From Actinoplanes sichuanensis (GTDB lineage: Bacteria; Actinomycetota; Actinomycetes; Mycobacteriales; Micromonosporaceae): a stretch of 64,000 nucleotides of DNA. Under the pieces are notes generated by a model, which made no database searches, was not told where the DNA came from, and worked only from the letters and a program-made list of their open reading frames with translations. How positions within the stretch are numbered: position 1 is the stretch's first letter; each line of letters starts with the position of its first letter. The DNA lies in the NCBI RefSeq assembly GCF_033097365.1, contig NZ_AP028461.1, forward strand, positions 3,410,001 through 3,474,000. The letters are read 5' to 3'. A program made the translations under genes and the position numbers. Shown piece by piece: positions 1-26,188 of the stretch.

Positions 1-1326
1 GATGGCCGGTACCCGGCGGGGCAGGACGGTGACCGCGATCAGGGCGGCGGCCGCCATCAGCGCGGCACACAGGGTCAGGCCCAGCGCGTACCCCTCGGTG
101 CCCGGATGTCTGTCGGCGATGGTGCCGAGCACCGCCAGGCCCAGCGCCGCGCCGATCTGCCGGGAGCTGTTGAGCAGCCCCGACGCCGTGCCCGATTCGT
201 GGTCGGCGACCCCGGCGGTGGCGATCGACACGACCGGGCCCAGACAGAACCCGAACCCGAAACCGGCGATCACCGACGGCGCCAGCACGTCAGCGGTGAA
301 CGACCCGTCCACACTGATCCGCCCGAACACCGCGAACCCGGCCGCCGTCAGCAGACCACCGGCGATCAGCAGCATCCGGCCCGGCAGCCGGTGACCCAGC
401 CGTACCGCGACCACCGCACCGGCGACCACGGCCAGCGCGAACGGCAGGAACATCACCCCGGTCAGCGCCGGCCCGTGCCCCAGCACCTGCTGCAGATACA
501 GCGACGCGAAGTAGAACGCCGACGCCATCGCCGCCCCGGCCAGCAGGTTGAACAGGTTCGCCCCGGCCACCGACCGGTTCGCCGCCAACCCGAACCGGAT
601 CAGCGGATCCCGCGTCGTGCGCCGTTGCACGACCACGAACCCGGCCAGCAACGCGACGGCGACCGCGACGGGCCGGATGTCGGTACGCACGATGCCGTAC
701 ACCAGAAGCAGCATCCCGGAGGTGGCCAGCAGTGCCCCCGCCACATCCGGGCCACGGTCGGCGACCGGCGGTGCATCGTCGACCCGCCATGCCATGACCA
801 GTGCGGCGGCCGCCATCGGGACACTGACGAACATCACCCAGCGCCAGCCCGCGTACTCGGTGAGGACTCCGCCGATCAGCACACCCAGCGCACCGCCGGC
901 GGCGTTGACGGCCGCCCACACCCCGAACGCCCGCACCCGGGCCCGGCCGTCCGGGAACGCGGCGCTGAGCAGGGCGAGCGCGGCCGGGGCGAGGGCCGCC
1001 GCGCCGATGCCCTGGACGGCTCGGGCGGCGACGAGGTGGCCCGGCTGCTGGGCGAATCCGCCGGCCAGTGACGCCAGCGCGAACACGGTCAGGCCGAGCA
1101 GGAGCAGGAGTCGGCGGCCGTACCGGTCGGCGGCCTTGCCACCGAGCAGCAGCAGACCACCGAACGTGACGGCGTAGGCGTGGATCACCCAGGTCAGGCC
1201 GAGGGTGCTGAATCCGAGTCCGGCGGCGATGCGGGGCAGTCCCACGTTCACGACCGAGAGGTCCAGCGACACCATGAACTGTACGAGAGCGACGGTGGCG
1301 AGAATGACACCCGACTTTCGGAACAT
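1..1326 (-). CDS. MFS drug-exporter-like transporter (partial, cut by left edge)
   Basis: The reading frame starts at an ATG at 1326 (MFRKSGVILATVALVQFMVS) and stays open for 442 codons to base 1, so the C-terminus lies outside the window. The first helix carries the SLDLSVVNVGLPRI signature of 14-TM drug:H+ antiporters (DHA2), followed by the loop-2 motif GGKAADRYGRR and a motif-C-like stretch. It should export small hydrophobic or cationic compounds across the plasma membrane; the substrate cannot be told. A TetR gene runs divergently 26 bp away, and a perfect 24-bp palindrome covers the start codon, so TetR repression of this gene is the natural inference. Family call firm; substrate unknown. 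Confidence 0.9.
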   Translation of the reverse strand, partial: MFRKSGVILATVALVQFMVSLDLSVVNVGLPRIAAGLGFSTLGLTWVIHAYAVTFGGLLLLGGKAADRYGRRLLLLLGLTVFALASLAGGFAQQPGHLVAARAVQGIGAAALAPAALALLSAAFPDGRARVRAFGVWAAVNAAGGALGVLIGGVLTEYAGWRWVMFVSVPMAAAALVMAWRVDDAPPVADRGPDVAGALLATSGMLLLVYGIVRTDIRPVAVAVALLAGFVVVQRRTTRDPLIRFGLAANRSVAGANLFNLLAGAAMASAFYFASLYLQQVLGHGPALTGVMFLPFALAVVAGAVVAVRLGHRLPGRMLLIAGGLLTAAGFAVFGRISVDGSFTADVLAPSVIAGFGFGFCLGPVVSIATAGVADHESGTASGLLNSSRQIGAALGLAVLGTIADRHPGTEGYALGLTLCAALMAAAALIAVTVLPRRVPAI

Positions 1327-1337
1327 GTTCCGAAAGT
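1314..1337. promoter_or_regulatory. Perfect 24-bp palindromic operator over the MFS start codon
   Basis: The half-site ACTTTCGGAACA (1314-1325) is followed directly by its exact reverse complement to 1337, with no spacer. The MFS start codon (1324-1326) lies inside it and the divergent TetR gene begins 16 bp further on. Size and symmetry fit a TetR dimer site; position implies a block of both transcription and initiation of the exporter and probably autoregulation. Confidence 0.75.
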
Positions 1338-1352
1338 AGCAGTGGGACATCC

Positions 1353-2015
1353 ATGCATCAAGATGGTCGGGTGCCCGCAACCCCGCGCCGGACCGGCCGG
1401 CCACCGGTGACCTCCCGCCCGCAGATCCTGGCCGCCGCCCGCAGCCTCATCGACGCCGACGGCTGGGAGAAACTCACCGTCCGCCGGCTGGCCGCCGAAC
1501 TCGGGATCGGGCCCACCACCCTGTACCACCACGTGCGGGACAAACAGGACCTGCTGCTCCAACTGCTCAACGAATACGCCGGCCGACTGCCGGTACCGGA
1601 GCTGCCCGACGAACCCCGCGACCGGATCGTGGTGGCCGCCACCGCCATGCACGACGCCCTCACCGGCTGGCCGTGGGCCGCCGAGATCCTGGCCACCGAC
1701 GGGTTCGTCGGCCTGCTCGGCGACCCGGCCCTGCACCTGGTCGACACCATCGTCGGCGCCGCCGTCGACGCCGGGCGCACCCGCGCACAGGCCGTCGCGG
1801 TGTTCCGGAGCATCTGGTACTACACCGTCGGCGAGATCCTGGTCCGTTTCCGATCAGTCGGCCCGGCCGCCTACCGCGACATCGACTTCACCGCGTTCGA
1901 CCCCACCCGGCTCCCGCACCTGGCCGCCATCGGCGACCAGTGGCCCGCCCTGGCCACCACCGACACCTATCCGGCCGGTCTACGCGCCCTGGTCGACGGC
2001 CTGCTCGATGACTGA
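1353..2015 (+). CDS. TetR/AcrR family repressor with TetR C-type C-terminal domain
   Basis: Residues about 20-65 form the DNA-binding HTH (PQILAAARSLIDADGWEKLTVRRLAAELGIGP split over helices 1-2, then TTLYHHVRDKQDLL as recognition helix and helix 4). The rest is an all-helical ligand domain of the TetR_C type found in regulators of drug efflux. ATG 1353 is used; GTG at 1371 (VPATPRRTGRPP) is an equally good start because homologues usually begin just before the GRPP tract. Divergent from the MFS exporter with a shared palindrome, so it probably senses that pump's substrate and derepresses it. Confidence 0.9.
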   Translation: MHQDGRVPATPRRTGRPPVTSRPQILAAARSLIDADGWEKLTVRRLAAELGIGPTTLYHHVRDKQDLLLQLLNEYAGRLPVPELPDEPRDRIVVAATAMHDALTGWPWAAEILATDGFVGLLGDPALHLVDTIVGAAVDAGRTRAQAVAVFRSIWYYTVGEILVRFRSVGPAAYRDIDFTAFDPTRLPHLAAIGDQWPALATTDTYPAGLRALVDGLLDD

Positions 2016-2050
2016 CGGCCGGCCCGTCCCACCGACCGACCGCCGACCGC

Positions 2051-2132
2051 GGCCCCGGCATCAACGGGGCGCGGCCCTATGACCGACACCCGGCCCCGGC
2101 ATCGACAGGGCGCGGCCGTATGACCCATACCC
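2051..2132 (+). repeat. Two 41-bp tandem copies spanning the start region of the next gene
   Basis: Copy 1 is 2051-2091 and copy 2 is 2092-2132, differing at a handful of bases. Both contain GGCCCCGGCATC, GGCGCGGCC and TATGACC. The second copy holds the ATG (2120) of the LRV-repeat gene. The first holds an equivalent ATG (2079) that opens a 14-codon frame (MTDTRPRHRQGAAV) whose TGA overlaps the main ATG as ATGA. Confidence 0.75.
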
Positions 2133-3589
2133 GGCCCCGCCCGCCTGCCGACCGGCACCTGACCCGAGGGCTGGCCGCCAACCCCGGCCTGAGCATCGAC
2201 GTGCTGCGGCCGCTCGCCGACAGCGACGACGAGCAGACCCGGCAAGCCCTGGCTCGCCGCACCGACCTCACCGAGGACCTGGCCGTGCGGCTGGCCACCG
2301 GCCCGCCTGTGGGCCGGTCCGCCACACAGGCCGCCGGTCCACCTGCGCGTCCGGCTACCGTGCAGGCCGCGATCCCGCCTGCGCGTCCGGCCGCCGCACA
2401 GGCCGCCGTTCCGCCTGTGCGACTGGCTGCCGCGCAGGCCGTCGTCCTGGCCGGCAACCCGGTCGCCGCCGCCCACGCCTGGCCGCAACTGATCACCCAT
2501 CCGGACCCGTCGGCCCGCCGCGCGCTGGCCGCCCACGCGCCGTCGCCGGCTCTGCGGATCCTCGCCCACGACCCGGACCTCGGCGTGCGCCGCGCTGTCG
2601 CCGTACGGCCCGACCTGCCCGGCGACCTGGTCCTGCAGTTGGCCGCCGATCCGTCGCCGATCGTGCGGCGCGAGATCGCCTGGCATCCACATCGGCCGCA
2701 CACCCTGCTCACCGACCGCGACGACCAGGTCCGCCGCAGCGCCCTCATGCGGGTGGCGCCACCGGACGACCTGCTCCCGGCGTTACTGGCCGACCCGGCG
2801 ACCCGCCCGGTGGCCGCCCGGCACGTGCACGATCCCGGCCGGGCCGCCGCGCTGCGCGACGATCCCGATCCTTGGGTGCGGTCCTCTCTGGCCGAAAACG
2901 ATCACCTCCCGTACCGGGTGGTCAGCCCGCTCGGCACCGACGGCGACGAGGAGGTCCGCACCGCGATCATGCTGCGCCGCGACACCCCCGACGACGTCCG
3001 CCACACGATCGCGGCCACCCTCACCGATCAGGACACCCACGTGTCCGACTGGCTGCGTCCCCAGCGCGCCACCCGTGCCGAACGGCTCGCCCACCTGCGA
3101 TCACCGTTCGTCTTCCACCGCCGGGCCATCGCGTTCTCCACCGATCTGCCGGCCGAAGCGGTAGCCGCCCTGGCCGCCGACGACGACTACAGCGTGCGCC
3201 TGCTGACCGCCCGCAACAGCCCCGGCGTGCCCGGCCACATCCTGCCCGGCCTGCTGCGACGCGCCGGCCACGACCGCTGGGAACTCGCCGCCCACCCGAA
3301 CATGCCGGCCGCCTCCCTGGCCGCCCTGGCCACCGGCGACGACGAGGAACTGCGCCAGGTGGCCGCAGCCGCCCCCAACCTCCCACCGCGGCTCGCCGCC
3401 GCCCTGCTCACCGACCGCCACCATCAGACCCGCTGCAACGCCGCCGCCAACCCGGCCCTGCCGCTGCCGCTGCTGCGGCAGGCACTGCACGGCCCCGACC
3501 GCGACCTGGCCCGCCACGCCGCCCGCAACCCGGCCCTACCGGTGCCGGACGCCCAGAAGATCATCACCGCCCACGGCACTGTCCGATAG
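2120..3589 (+). CDS. Leucine-rich repeat variant (LRV-like) protein
   Basis: The 489-residue protein has no membrane segment and is built from recurring helical units of about 24 residues of the type AANPxLPxxLLxxLxxDxDxxVRxxxA, for example LAANPGLSIDVLRPLADSDD near the start and AANPALPLPLLRQALHGPD near residue 440. These match LRV/HEAT-like solenoids that act as protein-binding scaffolds. A proline-rich 12-residue repeat interrupts the solenoid at residues 62-109. Such proteins are common in Actinoplanes and Micromonospora and have no assigned function. The ATG lies in the second copy of a 41-bp duplication; TetR gene upstream is not obviously co-functional. Confidence 0.8.
   Translation: MTHTRPRPPADRHLTRGLAANPGLSIDVLRPLADSDDEQTRQALARRTDLTEDLAVRLATGPPVGRSATQAAGPPARPATVQAAIPPARPAAAQAAVPPVRLAAAQAVVLAGNPVAAAHAWPQLITHPDPSARRALAAHAPSPALRILAHDPDLGVRRAVAVRPDLPGDLVLQLAADPSPIVRREIAWHPHRPHTLLTDRDDQVRRSALMRVAPPDDLLPALLADPATRPVAARHVHDPGRAAALRDDPDPWVRSSLAENDHLPYRVVSPLGTDGDEEVRTAIMLRRDTPDDVRHTIAATLTDQDTHVSDWLRPQRATRAERLAHLRSPFVFHRRAIAFSTDLPAEAVAALAADDDYSVRLLTARNSPGVPGHILPGLLRRAGHDRWELAAHPNMPAASLAALATGDDEELRQVAAAAPNLPPRLAAALLTDRHHQTRCNAAANPALPLPLLRQALHGPDRDLARHAARNPALPVPDAQKIITAHGTVR
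2303..2446 (+). repeat. Four 36-bp tandem repeats inside the LRV gene
   Basis: The repeats encode PPVGRSATQAAG, PPARPATVQAAI, PPARPAAAQAAV and PPVRLAAAQAVV. They are in frame and lie between two solenoid units, so copy-number change would lengthen a linker without breaking the gene. Confidence 0.75.
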
Positions 3590-3602
3590 GTCCACTCCTG
3601 GA

Positions 3603-3636
3603 GCACGGTCGCCCCGGGGCGGGCCGACCACCGTGC
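3603..3636. terminator. Probable intrinsic terminator after the LRV gene
   Basis: A stem with GCAC/GTGC at the base and GGTCG-CCCC pairing with GGGG-CGACC nearer the tip begins 13 bp after the LRV stop codon. There is no clear T-tract, as is usual in actinomycetes. The rest of 3590-3796 holds no convincing gene. Confidence 0.4.
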
Positions 3637-3796
3637 AACAGCGCGGACGAATCCCGGGCCAGCCGGCTTCTCTGCCGTCCCGACCCCTGTGACAGCTCCG
3701 GCGGCCTTGTCGGCGCCGGATGGCCGCCCGCAGGGCCGCCGGAGCACCGGCACGGCGCGGGGTGAGCGCCGGGCCGTGAACGGCGCCGGCCGCTGG

Positions 3797-4444
3797 TCAA
3801 CGGGTTCGGGTGGGTGGGCGGCGGCTGCCGGTGAAGTCGTAGCGGTTCAGGTCTCGGCGGATGCGGGCGGCCGTCAAGGCGGTGAGCAGGACCGCGCCGG
3901 TGAGGGTCAGGGCGTAGGTGTAGCGCAGTCGCGGCGGGGACGGCCGGGCGGTGGCCGGTGGGAACCAGCCCAGCGGGTCGAACACCGCGACCATCCGGTC
4001 GCCGGCGCGCAGGTCGCGGTCGGCGAAGAACAGCACCTCGCCCAGGTCTTCGCCGGTGGCCGCGGCGGCGACCTCGACCAGCTGGTAGCCGTCGCCGGAC
4101 ACGTCGTCGCCGGCGGTCACCACCACCGGGACCCGGTCGCCGGCCAGCTCCAGGTAGGCGCCGGTGACTCCGGCGCCCGCCGCGACCGCGAACAGCAGCG
4201 TCACGGCGCCGATCGCGACGAACCAGCCGCCGTGCCGGTCGCGGGGGTCCTCGCCGAGGAACCACACCAGCACCGGAACGATCAGACCGGCCAGCATCGG
4301 CACCACCGCCAGCACGGTGAGAACCGTCGAACCCGCACCGGCCAGAAACCCCGCCGCGGCCCACGCCGACAGACAGATCGACAACGAGCCGACAGACAGC
4401 GAGATCTGTCGCAGGATCAGGCGATTGCGGGGCACGGGCAACAT
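3797..4444 (-). CDS. Hypothetical membrane protein with extracytoplasmic domain
   Basis: From the ATG at 4444 (MLPVPRNRLILRQISLSVGS) the 215-residue protein has three helices in its first half (around residues 10-30, 37-60 and 75-95), a soluble segment of about 80 residues rich in Val/Asp (ELAGDRVPVVVTAGDDVSGD), and a final helix near the C-terminus (LTLTGAVLLTALTAARI). This resembles the DUF3592-like class in which a small beta domain sits outside the membrane. The longer open frame upstream to 4642 has low-complexity Arg/Pro sequence and was not used. Function unknown. Confidence 0.65.
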   Translation of the reverse strand: MLPVPRNRLILRQISLSVGSLSICLSAWAAAGFLAGAGSTVLTVLAVVPMLAGLIVPVLVWFLGEDPRDRHGGWFVAIGAVTLLFAVAAGAGVTGAYLELAGDRVPVVVTAGDDVSGDGYQLVEVAAAATGEDLGEVLFFADRDLRAGDRMVAVFDPLGWFPPATARPSPPRLRYTYALTLTGAVLLTALTAARIRRDLNRYDFTGSRRPPTRTR

Positions 4445-4658
4445 ACTGCCCCGAGCGTGCAACCACCGTCGGCGATCGACTGATCCCGTTGCGGAACCGG
4501 CGCGGGCTCGCCTTTCGGTGTCGGGCACGGGTGTCGCGCCGAGCCGGGATTGCGCCCGAAAGGCGCGCTGGTGGGCGGGACCGGCCGGCCGCGTCGCGGT
4601 CGACAGCCACGGGCGGGTGTGGTGCGGCGCGGGGCGGCCCACGGCGTACCGACACCGG

Positions 4659-5018
4659 TCAATGATCTTCCAATGCGGCCTTGACCAGGGCGAGTGCCGT
4701 CTCGGCCGGGACGCCGAGGGCGCGGGTCCGTTCGGCGTAGGCGACCGCGGCGCGGTGGGCCTGGCCGGAGGTGTTGGTGGCCTTCGCGGTGATCACCGTG
4801 CCGTGCCGGCCTCGGGTCTCGACGAGGCCGGCCTGTTCGAGTTCGCGGTAGGCGCGGGCCACCGTGTTGACCGCCAGACCCAGGTCGCCGGCGAGCTGGC
4901 GCACCGGCGGCAGGCGGGTGCCGGCGGCCAGTTCACCGTCGGCGGCCAGGGCGGCGATACGCAGGCGGACCTGCTCGTACGGTGGGGTCGCCGACGCCGG
5001 GTCGATGGTGATGTCCAT
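4659..5018 (-). CDS. GntR-family regulator, YtrA subfamily
   Basis: The 119-residue protein has the N-terminal winged helix of the GntR family: PPYEQVRLRIAALAADGEL, TRLPPVRQLAGDLGL and the recognition part VNTVARAYRELEQAGLVETR. It has only a short C-terminal helix pair, as in the YtrA group that usually controls transporters. Its ATG overlaps the stop of the upstream UMF1 transporter gene by one base (TGATG), so the two are translationally coupled, and it probably regulates that operon. Confidence 0.88.
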   Translation of the reverse strand: MDITIDPASATPPYEQVRLRIAALAADGELAAGTRLPPVRQLAGDLGLAVNTVARAYRELEQAGLVETRGRHGTVITAKATNTSGQAHRAAVAYAERTRALGVPAETALALVKAALEDH

Positions 5019-6394
5019 CAGATCAGCTTCGGTGGCGTGTTGCCGACCGCGATGATGGCGCGCCGGATCGGCACCAGCGCCAGCAGCACCCCGCCGAGTA
5101 GGAAGAACACCACCAGCGAGACGATGCCGGCCCGGTAGCTGTCGGTCAGTTGGAAGATCAGGCCGAAGAACAGCGGCCCCAGCCAGCTGGTGCCCTTGTC
5201 GCTGATCTCGTAGAAGCCGTAGTACTCGCCCTCTTTACCGGCCGGGATCAGCTGGGAGAACAGGCTGCGCGACAGGGCCTGGCTGCCGCCCATGACGATG
5301 CCGATGCCGGCGCCGAGCAGCATGAACGGGATCGGTTCGCCCTCCGGCAGGAAGTAGGCGGCCGACACCACGCCCAGCCACAGCGCCAACGCGATCAGGA
5401 TGGTCTTGCGGGCGCCGATGCGGGTGGCCAACGCGCCGAGAGCCAGCGCGCCGCCGAAGGCCAGGAACTGCACGATGAGGATGGTCAGGATCAGCGCCGA
5501 CTGTTCGAGTTTGAGTTCCTCGGTGCCGAACTGGCTGGCCAACGCGATGACCGTCTGGATGCCGTCGTTGTAGATCAGGTACGCGCCGAGGAACGCCAGC
5601 GTCAGCGGGTAGGCCCGCATGCCCTTGATGGTGTGGCCGAGCTGTTTGAACCCGTCGGTCAGCACGTTGCCGCGGGGCTCGGCCTTCAGCGCGGTGCCGG
5701 GGTGCTCGCGCAGCCACAGCAGCGGCACGATCGTGAACGCCGCCCACCACACCCCGGCCGACACGATCGACCAGCGGGCCAGGTCCAGAGTGCGTTGCGG
5801 GTTGCCGTCCTCGGACAGGCTCATCACCGCGGCCAGGTTGAGCAGCAGCAGCACACCACCGCCGAGGTAGCCGACGGCCCAGCCGCGGCTGGAGATCCGG
5901 TCGCGGTCGTCGGGGCCGGCCAGCTGCGGCAGGAACGAGTTGTAGACGACGATGGCCGCGCCGAAGGAGATGTTCGCGACGATGAACAGCAGCCCACCGA
6001 GCAGGTAGCGGTCGCCGGTCACGAACGCCATCGCGATGGTGGCGGCGGCGCCGGTGAACGCGGCCCCGGCCAGCAGCGGCTTCTTACGCGGGGCCCGGTC
6101 GGCGATCGCGCCCATCACCGGCAGCACGAACACGGTCAACAGCACCGACAGGCTGACCAGGTACGCGTAGTAGGAGCCCGCCGCGACCGGGATGCCGAGC
6201 GGGTGCACGGTGCCGTCGCAGGTGTCGGCGTCGATGGCGCAGCCGGCGGCCCGCTCGGTGATGCTGGTCAGGAACGGGCCGAGGAACACGGTGATGACGG
6301 TGGTGGAGAACGCCGAGTTCGCCCAGTCGTAGAAGTACCAGCCGGTGCGTTCCCGTTTGTTCGCGAGCGTGGTGGTGTTGCCGTCGACGGCCAT
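5018..6394 (-). CDS. UMF1-family MFS transporter (Atg22-like)
   Basis: This 458-residue protein has 12 predicted helices. The N-terminal signature GWYFYDWANSAFSTTVITVF is diagnostic of the UMF1/Atg22-like family of the major facilitator superfamily, followed by MGAIADRAPRKKPLL. Atg22 in yeast exports amino acids from the vacuole; bacterial members have no firmly known substrate. An internal loop of about 40 residues with a Cys pair (AGCAIDADTCDG) lies between helices 1 and 2. Coupled by a 1-bp overlap to the downstream GntR gene. Confidence 0.88.
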   Translation of the reverse strand: MAVDGNTTTLANKRERTGWYFYDWANSAFSTTVITVFLGPFLTSITERAAGCAIDADTCDGTVHPLGIPVAAGSYYAYLVSLSVLLTVFVLPVMGAIADRAPRKKPLLAGAAFTGAAATIAMAFVTGDRYLLGGLLFIVANISFGAAIVVYNSFLPQLAGPDDRDRISSRGWAVGYLGGGVLLLLNLAAVMSLSEDGNPQRTLDLARWSIVSAGVWWAAFTIVPLLWLREHPGTALKAEPRGNVLTDGFKQLGHTIKGMRAYPLTLAFLGAYLIYNDGIQTVIALASQFGTEELKLEQSALILTILIVQFLAFGGALALGALATRIGARKTILIALALWLGVVSAAYFLPEGEPIPFMLLGAGIGIVMGGSQALSRSLFSQLIPAGKEGEYYGFYEISDKGTSWLGPLFFGLIFQLTDSYRAGIVSLVVFFLLGGVLLALVPIRRAIIAVGNTPPKLI

Positions 6395-24073: not shown

Positions 24074-25064
24074 AGCCTCCCGCCACCCGACTCCTGTAGC
24101 GCCTCACTATGCCCGCACACCGCCGACGCCGCGGTGCGGGCGAAACCGACCCACCGGGGGAGCGCCGATGATCAAGGCCGGTGCCGTCGTGAGAAAATCG
24201 CCGTCCGGCGGCACGCCTCGAATCGGCGATACCAGCGCCTCGACCCGGTGGGGTGGTGGTCGAGCCGTCGTGGACCCGCGTTTAACGCCGCAGCGACACG
24301 TCGTCGTGGGCGCCGCCGCGGCTCGCGGAAACGACGGCACTCGCCGGTTTCCGCACACGACGGCTCTGGGGGAACTTCAGCGGCCGTCGTCGGCCTGGCC
24401 CACGCCCTCCCCAGCACCCGATATTTCTCAGGTCGATAATGAGCATTATGTCAACCAACGCTCGAGAGGGACCTCCCCGCCCGCCTCACCCAGCGCGGAC
24501 AAGACACGTTCACAGCAGCTCGTCGAGTCGGGCGTGGTCTGCGCCGACGACGCGTGCAGCGTCGTCGGGCTCCGGCGGGTGATGCGGCCAGAGAACTCAT
24601 CAAGGTCTGGTCGGTTCGCCGGCGGTGATCGGTGTTCTCCCGAAGGCCCGGCGCCGACGAGTTGACAGGCCGGACGGGTCGACGGCACCGCGTTGCTGAG
24701 CCTGATCGGATGGATCAGCGGCGCGGCATCGCTGATTTCGGGCTCGGTCAGCGGCGCCGCCGCACGCCGCGAGCCGGTTCTCGGCGCGACGAGGCTCCCC
24801 GAGCCCGTCGAGCTGTCGACCCGGTTGAACGTGCGGCTGCGGGCCGTGGAGTCCTCAGGGCCGGGACGGGTGACCCCTGCCCCGCTCGCGGTTCGCCGGG
24901 GCCGGCTGCGGCTGGAAGGTCGGCGGCGTTTTCTCAGCGCGGTGTGCTTGGTGTGGTCGTCGGTTCGGCGGGTGGAATCGGACGAGAGGTTCATTACGGG
25001 CATGAGCGTTATTGATCATGCGCAGACCAGGACGAACGTCCCAAAGTCGTGCATAATATGCCTT
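24074..25064. other. Gene-free terminus region around the dif-like site
   Basis: No open frame in this 1-kb stretch has recognisable protein content. It holds the dif-like site (24429-24456) and five copies of the octamer GCCGTCGT: forward at 24183, 24264 and 24383, and inverted at 24331 and 24357. An inverted repeat GCGGAAAC/GTTTCCGC lies at 24325-24354. Left of about 24.4 kb the + strand is C-rich; right of about 24.7 kb it turns G-rich. Confidence 0.7.
24429..24456 (+). other. dif: dif-like chromosome dimer resolution site
   Basis: The core CGATAATGAGCATTATGTCAA (24434-24454, here split as CGATAAT-GAG-CATTATGTCAA) has the XerC arm, a 6-bp spacer (TGAGCA) and the XerD arm in 11-6-11 spacing. 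It agrees with the actinobacterial dif consensus at the GATAAT and CATTATGTCAA blocks; mismatches are in the outer XerC arm, one spacer base and the last two bases. It lies in gene-free DNA where strand composition changes. Confidence 0.8.
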
Positions 25065-25073
25065 ATGCAGCAT
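25046..25073 (+). other. Second Xer-type 11-6-11 core over the recombinase start
   Basis: GCATAA (25051-25056), the 6-bp spacer TATGCC and TTATGC (25063-25068) form a perfect inverted repeat with dif geometry; the outer arm bases are not dif-like. The ATG (25065) of the tyrosine recombinase lies inside the right arm. It may be a recombination target, an autoregulatory binding site, or both. Confidence 0.5.
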
Positions 25074-26012
25074 GTGTCGATGGCTGAGTTGATCGACGAG
25101 TTCTTGGCGGCCCGGGCCACGCGTAAACCCTCGGTGCACACGCTTTCGGCGTACCGCAGGGATTTGCATCTGGTGTTGCGGCTCGCCGAGCCCGCCCCGG
25201 TGACGGTGAGTGACCTCTCCCCTCGCGTCTTGCGGGGGGCCTTTGCCCGTTTTGCGGCGACGCGCTCCCCCGCGAGTGTCTCCCGGGCCTGGTCGTCGTG
25301 GAATGCGTTCTTCACGTTTCTGGTCACTGAGCAGGTGATTCCGGGCAATCCGATGTCGGCGGTGGACAAACCGCGCACGACGGCGCTGGTGCCGAAGCCG
25401 TTGCGGGGTGAGGACACGCCCGAGTTGTTGTTGCGGGCGGTGAGTACGGCGGATGACTCGCAGCGTGATCCGTGGCCGGAGCGGGATGTGGTGGTGCTGG
25501 CGCTGGCGTTGTGTGCGGGTCTGCGGTTGTCGGAGATGTTGGCGTTGCGGGTGGGTTCGGTCAGTGGGCGTGCGGGTGAGCGTCGGGTCGAGGTGGCCGG
25601 TAAGGGTGGGCGGCCGCGGATGGTGCCGATCGAGCCGGGGCTGGATGCGGCGGTGGGGCGTTATCTGGACAGCCGGCGGGTGCGGTTCGGGCGGGTCGGT
25701 GCGACCGCTCCCCTGCTGGTGGATCGGCGTGGGGCGGCGTTGCAGCGGGGTGGTCTGCAGTATCTGGTGCGGTCGTGTTATCGGCGGGCGGGTGTCGGGG
25801 ATCGGGTGCCGCGGGGGGCGCAGTTGCATGCGTTGCGGCATACGTTCGCGACGCGGTTGGCGGAGGACGGGGCGAACGCGTCGGAGATCATGCGGTTGTT
25901 GGGGCATGCGTCGTTGGCGACGTCGCAGTCGTATATCGAGGTGACGGCGGAGCAGCAGCGTGCGGCGGTTCAGGCGAATAGGACTAATCGGGTGCTGAGT
26001 GAGCTGGGGTGA
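25065..26012 (+). CDS. Tyrosine recombinase (Xer-like integrase) near dif
   Basis: The 315-residue protein has an N-terminal SAM-like core-binding domain (MAELIDEFLAARATRKPSVH through NAFFTFLVTEQVIPGNP) and a complete catalytic domain. The catalytic residues are Arg in CAGLRLSEMLAL, Lys in VAGKGGRPRMVP, His-x-x-Arg in LHALRHTFATRL, His in LLGHASLATS and Tyr in SQSYIEV. Length and architecture match XerC/XerD rather than phage integrases. ATG 25065 was chosen because the open frame upstream lacks homology. It lies about 610 bp from the dif-like site and 26 bp before a small Tat lipoprotein gene. Whether it serves dif or another site is unknown. Confidence 0.88.
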   Translation: MQHVSMAELIDEFLAARATRKPSVHTLSAYRRDLHLVLRLAEPAPVTVSDLSPRVLRGAFARFAATRSPASVSRAWSSWNAFFTFLVTEQVIPGNPMSAVDKPRTTALVPKPLRGEDTPELLLRAVSTADDSQRDPWPERDVVVLALALCAGLRLSEMLALRVGSVSGRAGERRVEVAGKGGRPRMVPIEPGLDAAVGRYLDSRRVRFGRVGATAPLLVDRRGAALQRGGLQYLVRSCYRRAGVGDRVPRGAQLHALRHTFATRLAEDGANASEIMRLLGHASLATSQSYIEVTAEQQRAAVQANRTNRVLSELG

Positions 26013-26038: not shown

Positions 26039-26188
26039 ATGAGTGAGGAGAAGTTCAGTCGGCGGTCGCTGTTCGGGCGGGTGCTGCTGGTGGCCGGTGG
26101 GGTGGCGACGTTGACGACGTTGACCGGATGCCCGGGTGGCGACCAGGACGACGATGACGATGACGATGGTGGAGACGACGACGATTGA
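26039..26188 (+). CDS. 49-residue Tat lipoprotein with Asp-rich tail
   Basis: ATG 26039 opens MSEEKFSRRSLFGRVLLVAG, with a twin-arginine motif SRRSLF, a hydrophobic segment and a lipobox LTGC at residues 28-31. The mature part is only about 19 residues, CPGGDQ followed by seven Asp, two Gly and four Asp. It should be a membrane-anchored anionic peptide outside the cell, perhaps metal-binding. It starts 26 bp after the recombinase stop; a CAGAAT box just upstream could give it its own promoter. Too short for most gene finders. Confidence 0.65.
   Translation: MSEEKFSRRSLFGRVLLVAGGVATLTTLTGCPGGDQDDDDDDDGGDDDD

Follow-up and report, generated by a model that had tools for sequence, protein, structure and literature searches.

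The stretch of the Actinoplanes sichuanensis chromosome analysed here, 64,000 nucleotides long and called the window below, carries two recombination sites of the Xer type a few hundred base pairs apart. The first is dif. The second is a palindrome that overlaps the start of a gene for a tyrosine recombinase. Site and recombinase are called pdif and Xer3 (gene xer3), working labels that come from no database; together they probably form a resolution module of their own. Four features are laid out one after another.

24429..24456, plus strand: dif, canonical actinobacterial 11-6-11 site (CAGGTCGATAA-TGAGCA-TTATGTCAACC), identified by its uniqueness in window and genome, its position opposite dnaA and orthologous dif sites in relatives.

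24457..25045, no strand: dif-to-pdif spacer of 589 bp; the one open reading frame (ORF) tested has no Pfam match, and a structured RNA was looked for without any Rfam match.

25046..25073, no strand: pdif, 28-bp palindromic 11-6-11 site (GTCGTGCATAA-TATGCC-TTATGCAGCAT), overlapping the xer3 start, present in 106 loci and absent from 18 of 18 dif loci without Xer3.

25065..26012, plus strand: xer3, encoding a Xer-class tyrosine recombinase of 315 amino acids with the full catalytic set, identified by profile matches, orthologues, tree and fold model.

The source chromosome is a single, Actinoplanes-like contig of 12,144,028 bases. The dif core (ATAATGAGCATTATGTCAA, 24436-24454) is the sole match in the window at up to three mismatches, with none in 100 shuffles, and the sole match in the whole genome (12.14 Mb) at up to two. 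A looser pattern, TCGATAA-N6-TTATGTCAA, finds one extra and distant genome match at two mismatches. The dnaA gene is located at 9.5017-9.5035 Mb, 6.067-6.069 Mb from dif, and half the genome is 6.072 Mb. Because dnaA lies almost exactly opposite dif, the window contains the replication terminus.

The first-pass annotation of the window, made from the sequence alone, described a recombinase with all catalytic residues about 600 bp from dif. The xer3 gene indeed starts 608 bp past it. The annotation also had a second core enclosing the start codon. The core is real, with the in-frame ATG (25065-25067) inside its right arm; the ATG in the 6-bp spacer is out of frame.

This core, GCATAA-N6-TTATGC, occupies 25051-25068 without a mismatch. 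At up to two mismatches the window holds two matches where 0.08 are expected, and at up to one mismatch the core is unique in the genome, so a chance match can be rejected. Three more places in the genome match at two mismatches.

Xer3 matches two Pfam families above their cut-offs, PF00589 with 77.5 bits and PF02899 with 32.5 bits. Residues R154, K180, H255, R258, H281 and Y290, which are the catalytic residues of the tyrosine recombinase family, are among the columns that are invariant in 41 of 41 orthologues. This R-K-H-R-H-Y set and the fold place Xer3 in the tyrosine recombinase superfamily. Its AlphaFold model has a mean predicted local distance difference test score of 84.5, and the top Foldseek matches in the PDB are integrases and Xer proteins, which confirms the fold only. 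The stretch that holds the catalytic tyrosine (283-291) is modelled with low confidence.

Databases name the protein variously as XerC, XerD, integrase or tyrosine-type recombinase, and the phage-integrase family is matched 17 times in the source genome. The best NCBIfam score is with the XerC model (171.5 bits, cut-off 335), followed by the XerD model (151.9 bits, cut-off 330); these cut-offs are strict, that of XerD being passed by any match in just 10 of 22 genomes, and make a weak criterion alone. Xer3 scores 69 bits with the XerS model, against a cut-off of 267, and 31 bits with an XerH chain. It is also shorter than XerH, at 315 against 353-363 residues.

In a tree of 140 proteins, one branch splits Xer3 plus its plasmid relatives from the other types, which are XerC, XerD and a fourth (X4). 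The support for this split is 98 by the Shimodaira-Hasegawa-like approximate likelihood ratio test, the only measure used, in a tree that was made by a quick method, has some long branches and holds no XerS, XerH or XerL rows. The split of Xer3 only, with plasmid rows excluded, has a support of 65. The canonical genes of the source genome are found elsewhere, XerD-class at 11.84 Mb and XerC-class at 10.78 Mb. Given the separate branch and the presence of these genes, Xer3 can be rejected as a canonical XerC or XerD. The first-pass idea of a third, terminus-resident Xer protein is thereby borne out, since the two genes that it advised looking for are both present and Xer3 is conserved beside dif.

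In the Micromonosporaceae, xer3 is found in 117 of 200 genomes at 1e-30, with one match each, in 20 of the 44 genera. The genus itself was sampled with 36 genomes, the source among them, and every one carries it. The neighbourhood of dif and recombinase, whose conservation the same annotation had wanted checked, is kept in the family and also beyond it. At the 30 best family loci dif lies upstream on the strand of the gene and the second core lies at its start. The exceptions are L042, without dif by the pattern used, and L043, without the core.

The dif pattern occurs at up to two mismatches in 165 of the 200 family genomes (chance matches counted in), and the second core at up to one mismatch in 111. 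The core goes with the gene: it is present in 104 of 117 genomes that have xer3 and in 7 of 83 without a gene match. Among the 104, the match in genome G004 is a chance one far from the gene, and the position in G066 is not listed. All three genomes with a perfect site and no full gene match (G116, G175 and G199) have the N-terminus of Xer3 beside the core, clipped by the end of the contig. The other four of the seven hold one-mismatch matches; in G011 and G021 neither dif nor Xer3 occurs in the 3 kb read.

Most of the 13 genomes with the gene and without the core belong to a divergent group of 50-61% identity. Of the seven that were read, six (G007, G012, G026, G035, G040 and G046) show a variant palindrome, and none was found in G196 (L043). 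Two perfect pdif sites occur in none of the 200 family genomes. At 18 family loci chosen for dif without Xer3, which come from six genera with 13 of them from two, a stretch of up to 6 kb on each side contains no palindrome pairing in at least 8 of 11 positions and no gene.

Two family genomes show additional sites. A 58-kb contig of G150 has three pdif-like sites with one mismatch each within 25 kb (G150:C90:22280-47003, part in L231) and is possibly a plasmid or island that uses the site. In G190, the dif pattern matches perfectly at one more place (G190:C1:237036-237057), which has a different spacer, is far from the true dif and possibly marks an element that uses dif.

The geometry of the site can be followed in a pool of 142 loci, several of which share a genome; 112 of the 142 have both sites. 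Removal of 6 copies leaves 106, among which a re-check finds zero near-identical pairs. The remaining 30 lack dif, pdif or both. Twelve of them (L188-L197, L205 and L230) are covered by another locus of the same genome, and 18 have no scored pair: L042, L043, L063, L083, L087, L104, L143, L145, L146, L148, L150, L153, L155 and L157-L161. These include a variant site in L042, L063 and L160 and a degenerate one in L083 and L087. The second core, present together with dif in 106 loci, is a real site, as the first-pass annotation had thought possible.

The distance between dif and pdif in the 106 non-duplicate loci has a median of 450 bp (quartiles 353-560, range 242-5385) and is at most 705 bp in 96 of them. 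The gene lies within 1 kb of pdif in 86 loci, a linkage of gene and site like that of single-recombinase systems. In the other 20 it is more than 1 kb away or outside the locus, and 18 of these keep dif and pdif 242-705 bp apart. Outside the main Micromonosporaceae group, pdif and gene are separated by 57 bp to 9.5 kb, or the gene is beyond the locus. Since pdif stays near dif even where the gene is far, the site is tied to dif rather than to the start codon. From these sequences, a position over the start codon is a peculiarity of the main Micromonosporaceae group. In that group dif is on the strand of the gene; most other groups have it the other way round, which puts pdif on the opposite side of dif. 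Locus L230 (G009) is the reverse of the usual separation, with pdif and xer3 together and dif 5.4 kb off.

The inner ATAA/TTAT of pdif (4 of 11 positions) was demanded by the search and is excluded from the evidence for symmetry. The arms of pdif pair in 7-11 of 11 positions across the 106 loci, and in all 11 in 20 loci. For comparison, the arms of dif pair in 4-6 of 11 positions in 102 of the 106. Outer positions of the pdif arms match in 344 of 469 cases, where 1000 permutations, with kinship ignored, give a mean of 298 and a maximum of 321. As in single-recombinase systems, the site is 28 bp long with like arms around a 6-bp centre. Also as in those systems, there is one site at the terminus: it is single in the source genome at up to one mismatch, opposite dnaA, and no more than 1.5 kb from dif in 103 of the 106 loci.

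Changes in the site can affect both arms. In Saccharopolyspora and others TGCATAA has become TGGATAA in both arms together; some Lentzea and Kutzneria sites have TGGATAA in a single arm only. The spacers are diverse outside the main Micromonosporaceae group, and within it 50 of 56 start with TAT, perhaps because the site may double as a leaderless promoter. In L083, L087, L206 and L207 (Actinoplanes M2I2 and Paractinoplanes maris), dif (TCGAGAA or TCGTTAA) and pdif (TGTATAA with ATATGCA) are both altered, as if the two drift together in this lineage.

Beyond the family, a genome scan gives 80 named loci, the top 80 among 521 confirmed relatives, whether close or distant. They include Amycolatopsis, Lentzea, Saccharothrix, Kutzneria, Saccharopolyspora and Actinosynnema, as well as Nocardiopsis, Kribbella, Stackebrandtia and Acidimicrobiales. 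Most have dif and a palindromic 28-mer near the gene. In ten (L188-L197) neither site lies within 6 kb of the gene; a genome-wide search for the core located it farther off, 0.3-0.7 kb from dif (3.3 kb in L192).

Canonical recombinases usually accompany Xer3. Genes of both the XerD class (287-348 bits) and the XerC class (232-277 bits) are present in 17 of 19 Xer3 genomes examined. The two exceptions are G609, an Acidimicrobiales/Acidimicrobiia assembly, and Crossiella, in which a XerC-class match past 1e-30 is absent. The source genome, having XerC and XerD, therefore differs from single-recombinase systems, in which the recombinase is the sole Xer. The seven Acidimicrobiales/Acidimicrobiia assemblies come from metagenomes and are perhaps incomplete; in all seven, Xer3 (166-173 bits with the XerD model) stands alone as a Xer-class match, and all other matches score at most 74 bits. 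No XerC- or XerD-class match above 150 bits was found in Actinocrinis. Six of the seven assemblies carry a half-palindromic site, TGCATAATG-N-CG-N-TTATGT, which is on the contig of the gene in two (12-17 kb off) and on another contig in four.

A further Xer-like recombinase, X4 (G000:C1:3404266-3405066; L003, L262), is encoded about 5 kb to the left of the window. Its distance from dif is 12-65 kb in all 8 family genomes examined, 3 of which lack Xer3, and it has its own branch in the tree with a support of 100. No AT-rich palindrome common to the X4 neighbourhoods was seen in 8 loci. Directly after xer3 there is a small ORF (26039-26188, plus strand) that, judged by eye, has a twin-arginine/lipobox-like start and an Asp-rich tail.

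The closest outside relatives of Xer3 are found on large Rhodococcus and mycobacterial plasmids. They have 38-40% identity, fall on the same side of the tree and have a similar site: 9 of 11 relatives read carry a palindrome pairing in 10-11 of 11 positions, 87-1015 bp upstream. These 11 are taken from 15 matches listed among 1006 records (H7, H9, H11 and H14 were left out), and several of the plasmids are near-copies of others in the set. One plasmid site (L346) has arms identical to those of a chromosomal Amycolatopsis pdif. Unlike Xer3, these recombinases are plasmid-borne and are annotated only as tyrosine-type recombinase or integrase.

A recent integrative element can be rejected, since all 36 genus genomes have the gene and no att-like pair stands out among the 20 largest of at least 60 repeat families of the window, which are compositional. 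The first-pass annotation would have given up its proposal had the gene been absent from close relatives and flanked by att repeats; this was looked at, and the relatives have the gene. For an integrative element using dif (IMEX) or a prophage, a duplicated att-type flanking site was sought among these repeat families and not found, and the window contains neither a second dif copy nor a second perfect pdif. Xer3 is not a phage gene either, as 305 phage records are all below 60% identity, with 31.7% the best listed. Phage use of pdif was also tried and rejected: 0 contigs have the Amycolatopsis-type palindrome and 5 have CTGCATAAT-N5-TTATGCAG.

The terminus also shows an unusual composition. 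Between about 15400 and 32400 of the window (also L316-L327) there is an origin-like strand asymmetry: over about 6 kb or more, each strand leading away from dif is rich in G and T. In the window, GC skew is about -0.3 to the left of dif and +0.3 to the right. Within 3 kb of dif, Micromonosporaceae loci with Xer3 have negative skew on the left in 33 of 33 cases and positive skew on the right in 31 of 33, with at least two genomes counted twice (L069/L102 and L071/L095). Relatives without Xer3, by the same measure, are negative on the left in 10 of 16 and positive on the right in 7 of 16. Over 9 kb on each side, the sign flips at dif in 13 of 13 family genomes with Xer3, and the skew persists for about 6 kb or more. 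In 8 genomes without Xer3 a weak flip of the same sign is seen in L330 (-0.14/+0.07), and the others are near zero or unflipped.

This skew follows the strand over the direction of genes: by heuristic ORF calls, third-position GC skew is -0.01 to +0.41 in outward ORFs and -0.20 to -0.47 in inward ones. The island is also found in several Pseudonocardiaceae and is shifted in Nocardiopsis. It is absent from three Kribbella loci with Xer3, and no flip occurs at four Acidimicrobiales/Acidimicrobiia sites, so Xer3 is not established as the cause. The island resembles what outward replication would leave; it is confounded by ancestry and unexplained.

The best explanation, with a probability of roughly 0.6, is that Xer3 and pdif are a self-contained single-recombinase resolution module that has become fixed beside dif and coexists with XerCD/dif. 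An intact active site, like arms, a single site at the terminus and the pairing of gene and site all fit a homotetrameric, dimer-resolving recombinase. To judge by the symmetry, two Xer3 subunits would sit on the two like arms of one pdif. The two pdif sites of a dimeric or catenated pair of chromosomes would be brought together and synapsed by a Xer3 tetramer. Strand exchange across the 6-bp spacer would then split dimers into monomers, alongside XerCD at dif or as an alternative to it. We infer the binding, the strand exchange and the task in dimer resolution from sequence comparison.

Several observations weigh against this explanation. Two active sites about 450 bp apart create a parity problem, since exchange at both re-forms the dimer. 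The spacing of dif and pdif is narrower than an independent terminus site needs and favours some coupling with dif. About 80 of the 200 family genomes lack the gene, and so the module is dispensable; in L043, L083, L087 and L145 the gene is kept and the site is degenerate or was not detected. The Acidimicrobiales/Acidimicrobiia case is weakened by the nature of its assemblies, and their site pairs in 6-7 of 11 arm positions only.

Distribution and descent raise similar doubts. In a sample of the phylum, with 5 candidates scored per genome, xer3 is found at 1e-40 in only 4 of 396 genomes. Two of these belong to the family, one being the source; the other two hold relatives with 39-42% identity, which the tree puts in the plasmid group or close to it. 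The difference from the scan, which finds several families, is taken to reflect real patchiness together with sparse sampling, and it limits any claim of breadth. The tree mostly follows named families, but descent is not purely vertical. Kribbella falls inside the Pseudonocardiaceae, Saccharopolyspora is separated from the rest of that family, and the source's own family appears in two places.

Other explanations account for part of these data. PepA and ArgR are accessory partners at cer, and Xer3 at pdif might likewise be an architectural partner of XerCD at dif, shaping the synapse or gating recombination with no strand exchange of its own. The short distance to dif, with a median of 450 bp on either side of dif and even where the gene is distant, would fit such a partner. 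This role is nonetheless unlikely, because the catalytic residues are invariant in 41 orthologues, Acidimicrobiales/Acidimicrobiia assemblies have Xer3 with no detected XerC or XerD, plasmid relatives carry such a site, and in G009 dif is 5.4 kb from pdif. Alternately, the pair could be the remnant of a plasmid or integrative element, domesticated or parasitic, that was captured at the terminus and kept by inertia or as a selfish pair. The 38-40% relatives with the same type of site on Rhodococcus and mycobacterial plasmids, the arms shared between L346 and Amycolatopsis, the patchy distribution and some conflicts in the tree all point this way. Such an origin for the present pair appears still less probable, given one copy per genome in 117 family genomes, the same place and partner site across several families, no att-like pair among the 20 largest repeat families, two perfect sites in 0 of 200 genomes, and no close phage relatives found among 305 records (best listed 31.7%).

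Two roles considered in the first-pass annotation fare worse. If the second core were a mere operator, Xer3 would bind its own start region and repress itself. In favour of this, the site covers the start in the main Micromonosporaceae group, and its left arm has a -10-like CATAAT, which may be read as part of a promoter. In other groups, 57 bp to 9.5 kb separate site and gene, or the locus does not include the gene at all, and the site is still close to dif; autoregulation through the start codon is thus no general property, and the operator role is very improbable. Action of Xer3 on dif, replacing XerC or XerD as partner, would agree with the location at the terminus and with the XerC model as best NCBIfam match (171.5 bits). 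It has even less in its favour overall, as most Xer3 genomes tested have XerC- and XerD-class genes, the arms of dif are unlike those of pdif, and dif occurs without Xer3. Action on dif, or between dif and the second core, accordingly finds no support in the sequences, including the 18 loci chosen for dif, which lack the gene.

The Xer3/pdif module proposed above can be compared with known systems. Like XerS/difSL and XerH/difH, it has one recombinase and a site of about 28 bp with inverted arms around a 6-bp centre, near the terminus and often linked to the gene, as far as the accessible parts of the sources describe those systems (PMC2731167, PMC5357621). In the portion of PMC2731167 consulted, the epsilon-proteobacteria listed fall in either the XerH/difH or the XerCD/dif group; unlike XerH/difH as described there, the Xer3 module adjoins an intact XerCD/dif. 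XerL/dif of the Legionellales, in the available text of PMC9765430, is likewise a single recombinase with a palindromic dif, and a Coxiella plasmid has an orthologue with its own adjacent site. XerL is, by the same text, a distinct single-recombinase system, whereas Xer3 shares its chromosome with XerC and XerD (PMC9765430).

With XerCD/dif the module shares the superfamily, the 11-6-11 geometry and the terminus locus. It differs in having one recombinase, like arms and a distinct branch, where XerCD/dif has two recombinases and unlike arms. According to PMC3025954, xerC genes are mostly found near dif. No description of a second Xer/site pair beside dif in actinobacteria was found in titles and abstracts of the literature, with subscription papers mostly outside the scope (compare PMC3025954, PMC2731167, PMC5357621, PMC9765430 and PMC8138268, each in part). 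On present sequences, Xer3/pdif looks like an unrecognised extra chromosome-resolution system.

A more speculative extension is that the terminus is paired. XerCD/dif and Xer3/pdif would be functionally coupled at short distance in many actinobacteria, with the second system portable between chromosome and plasmid and sufficient alone in Acidimicrobiales. In its boldest form, recombination would also start outward DNA synthesis and so leave the origin-like skew of Micromonosporaceae with Xer3. This extension is rather doubtful.

In the cited literature, as far as available, each host resolves chromosome dimers with one system, which is XerCD/dif or a single-recombinase system; the genomes analysed here appear to carry two, side by side. 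The hosts are industrially important filamentous bacteria, whose second gene goes under the names XerC, XerD or integrase in databases. So compact a recombinase, with its palindromic 28-bp site, would be of use as a genetic tool as well. The plasmid relatives, together with the Acidimicrobiales, point to a way in which single-recombinase systems may arise. The origin of those systems, the reason for having two in one cell and whether the second needs FtsK thereby become testable questions.

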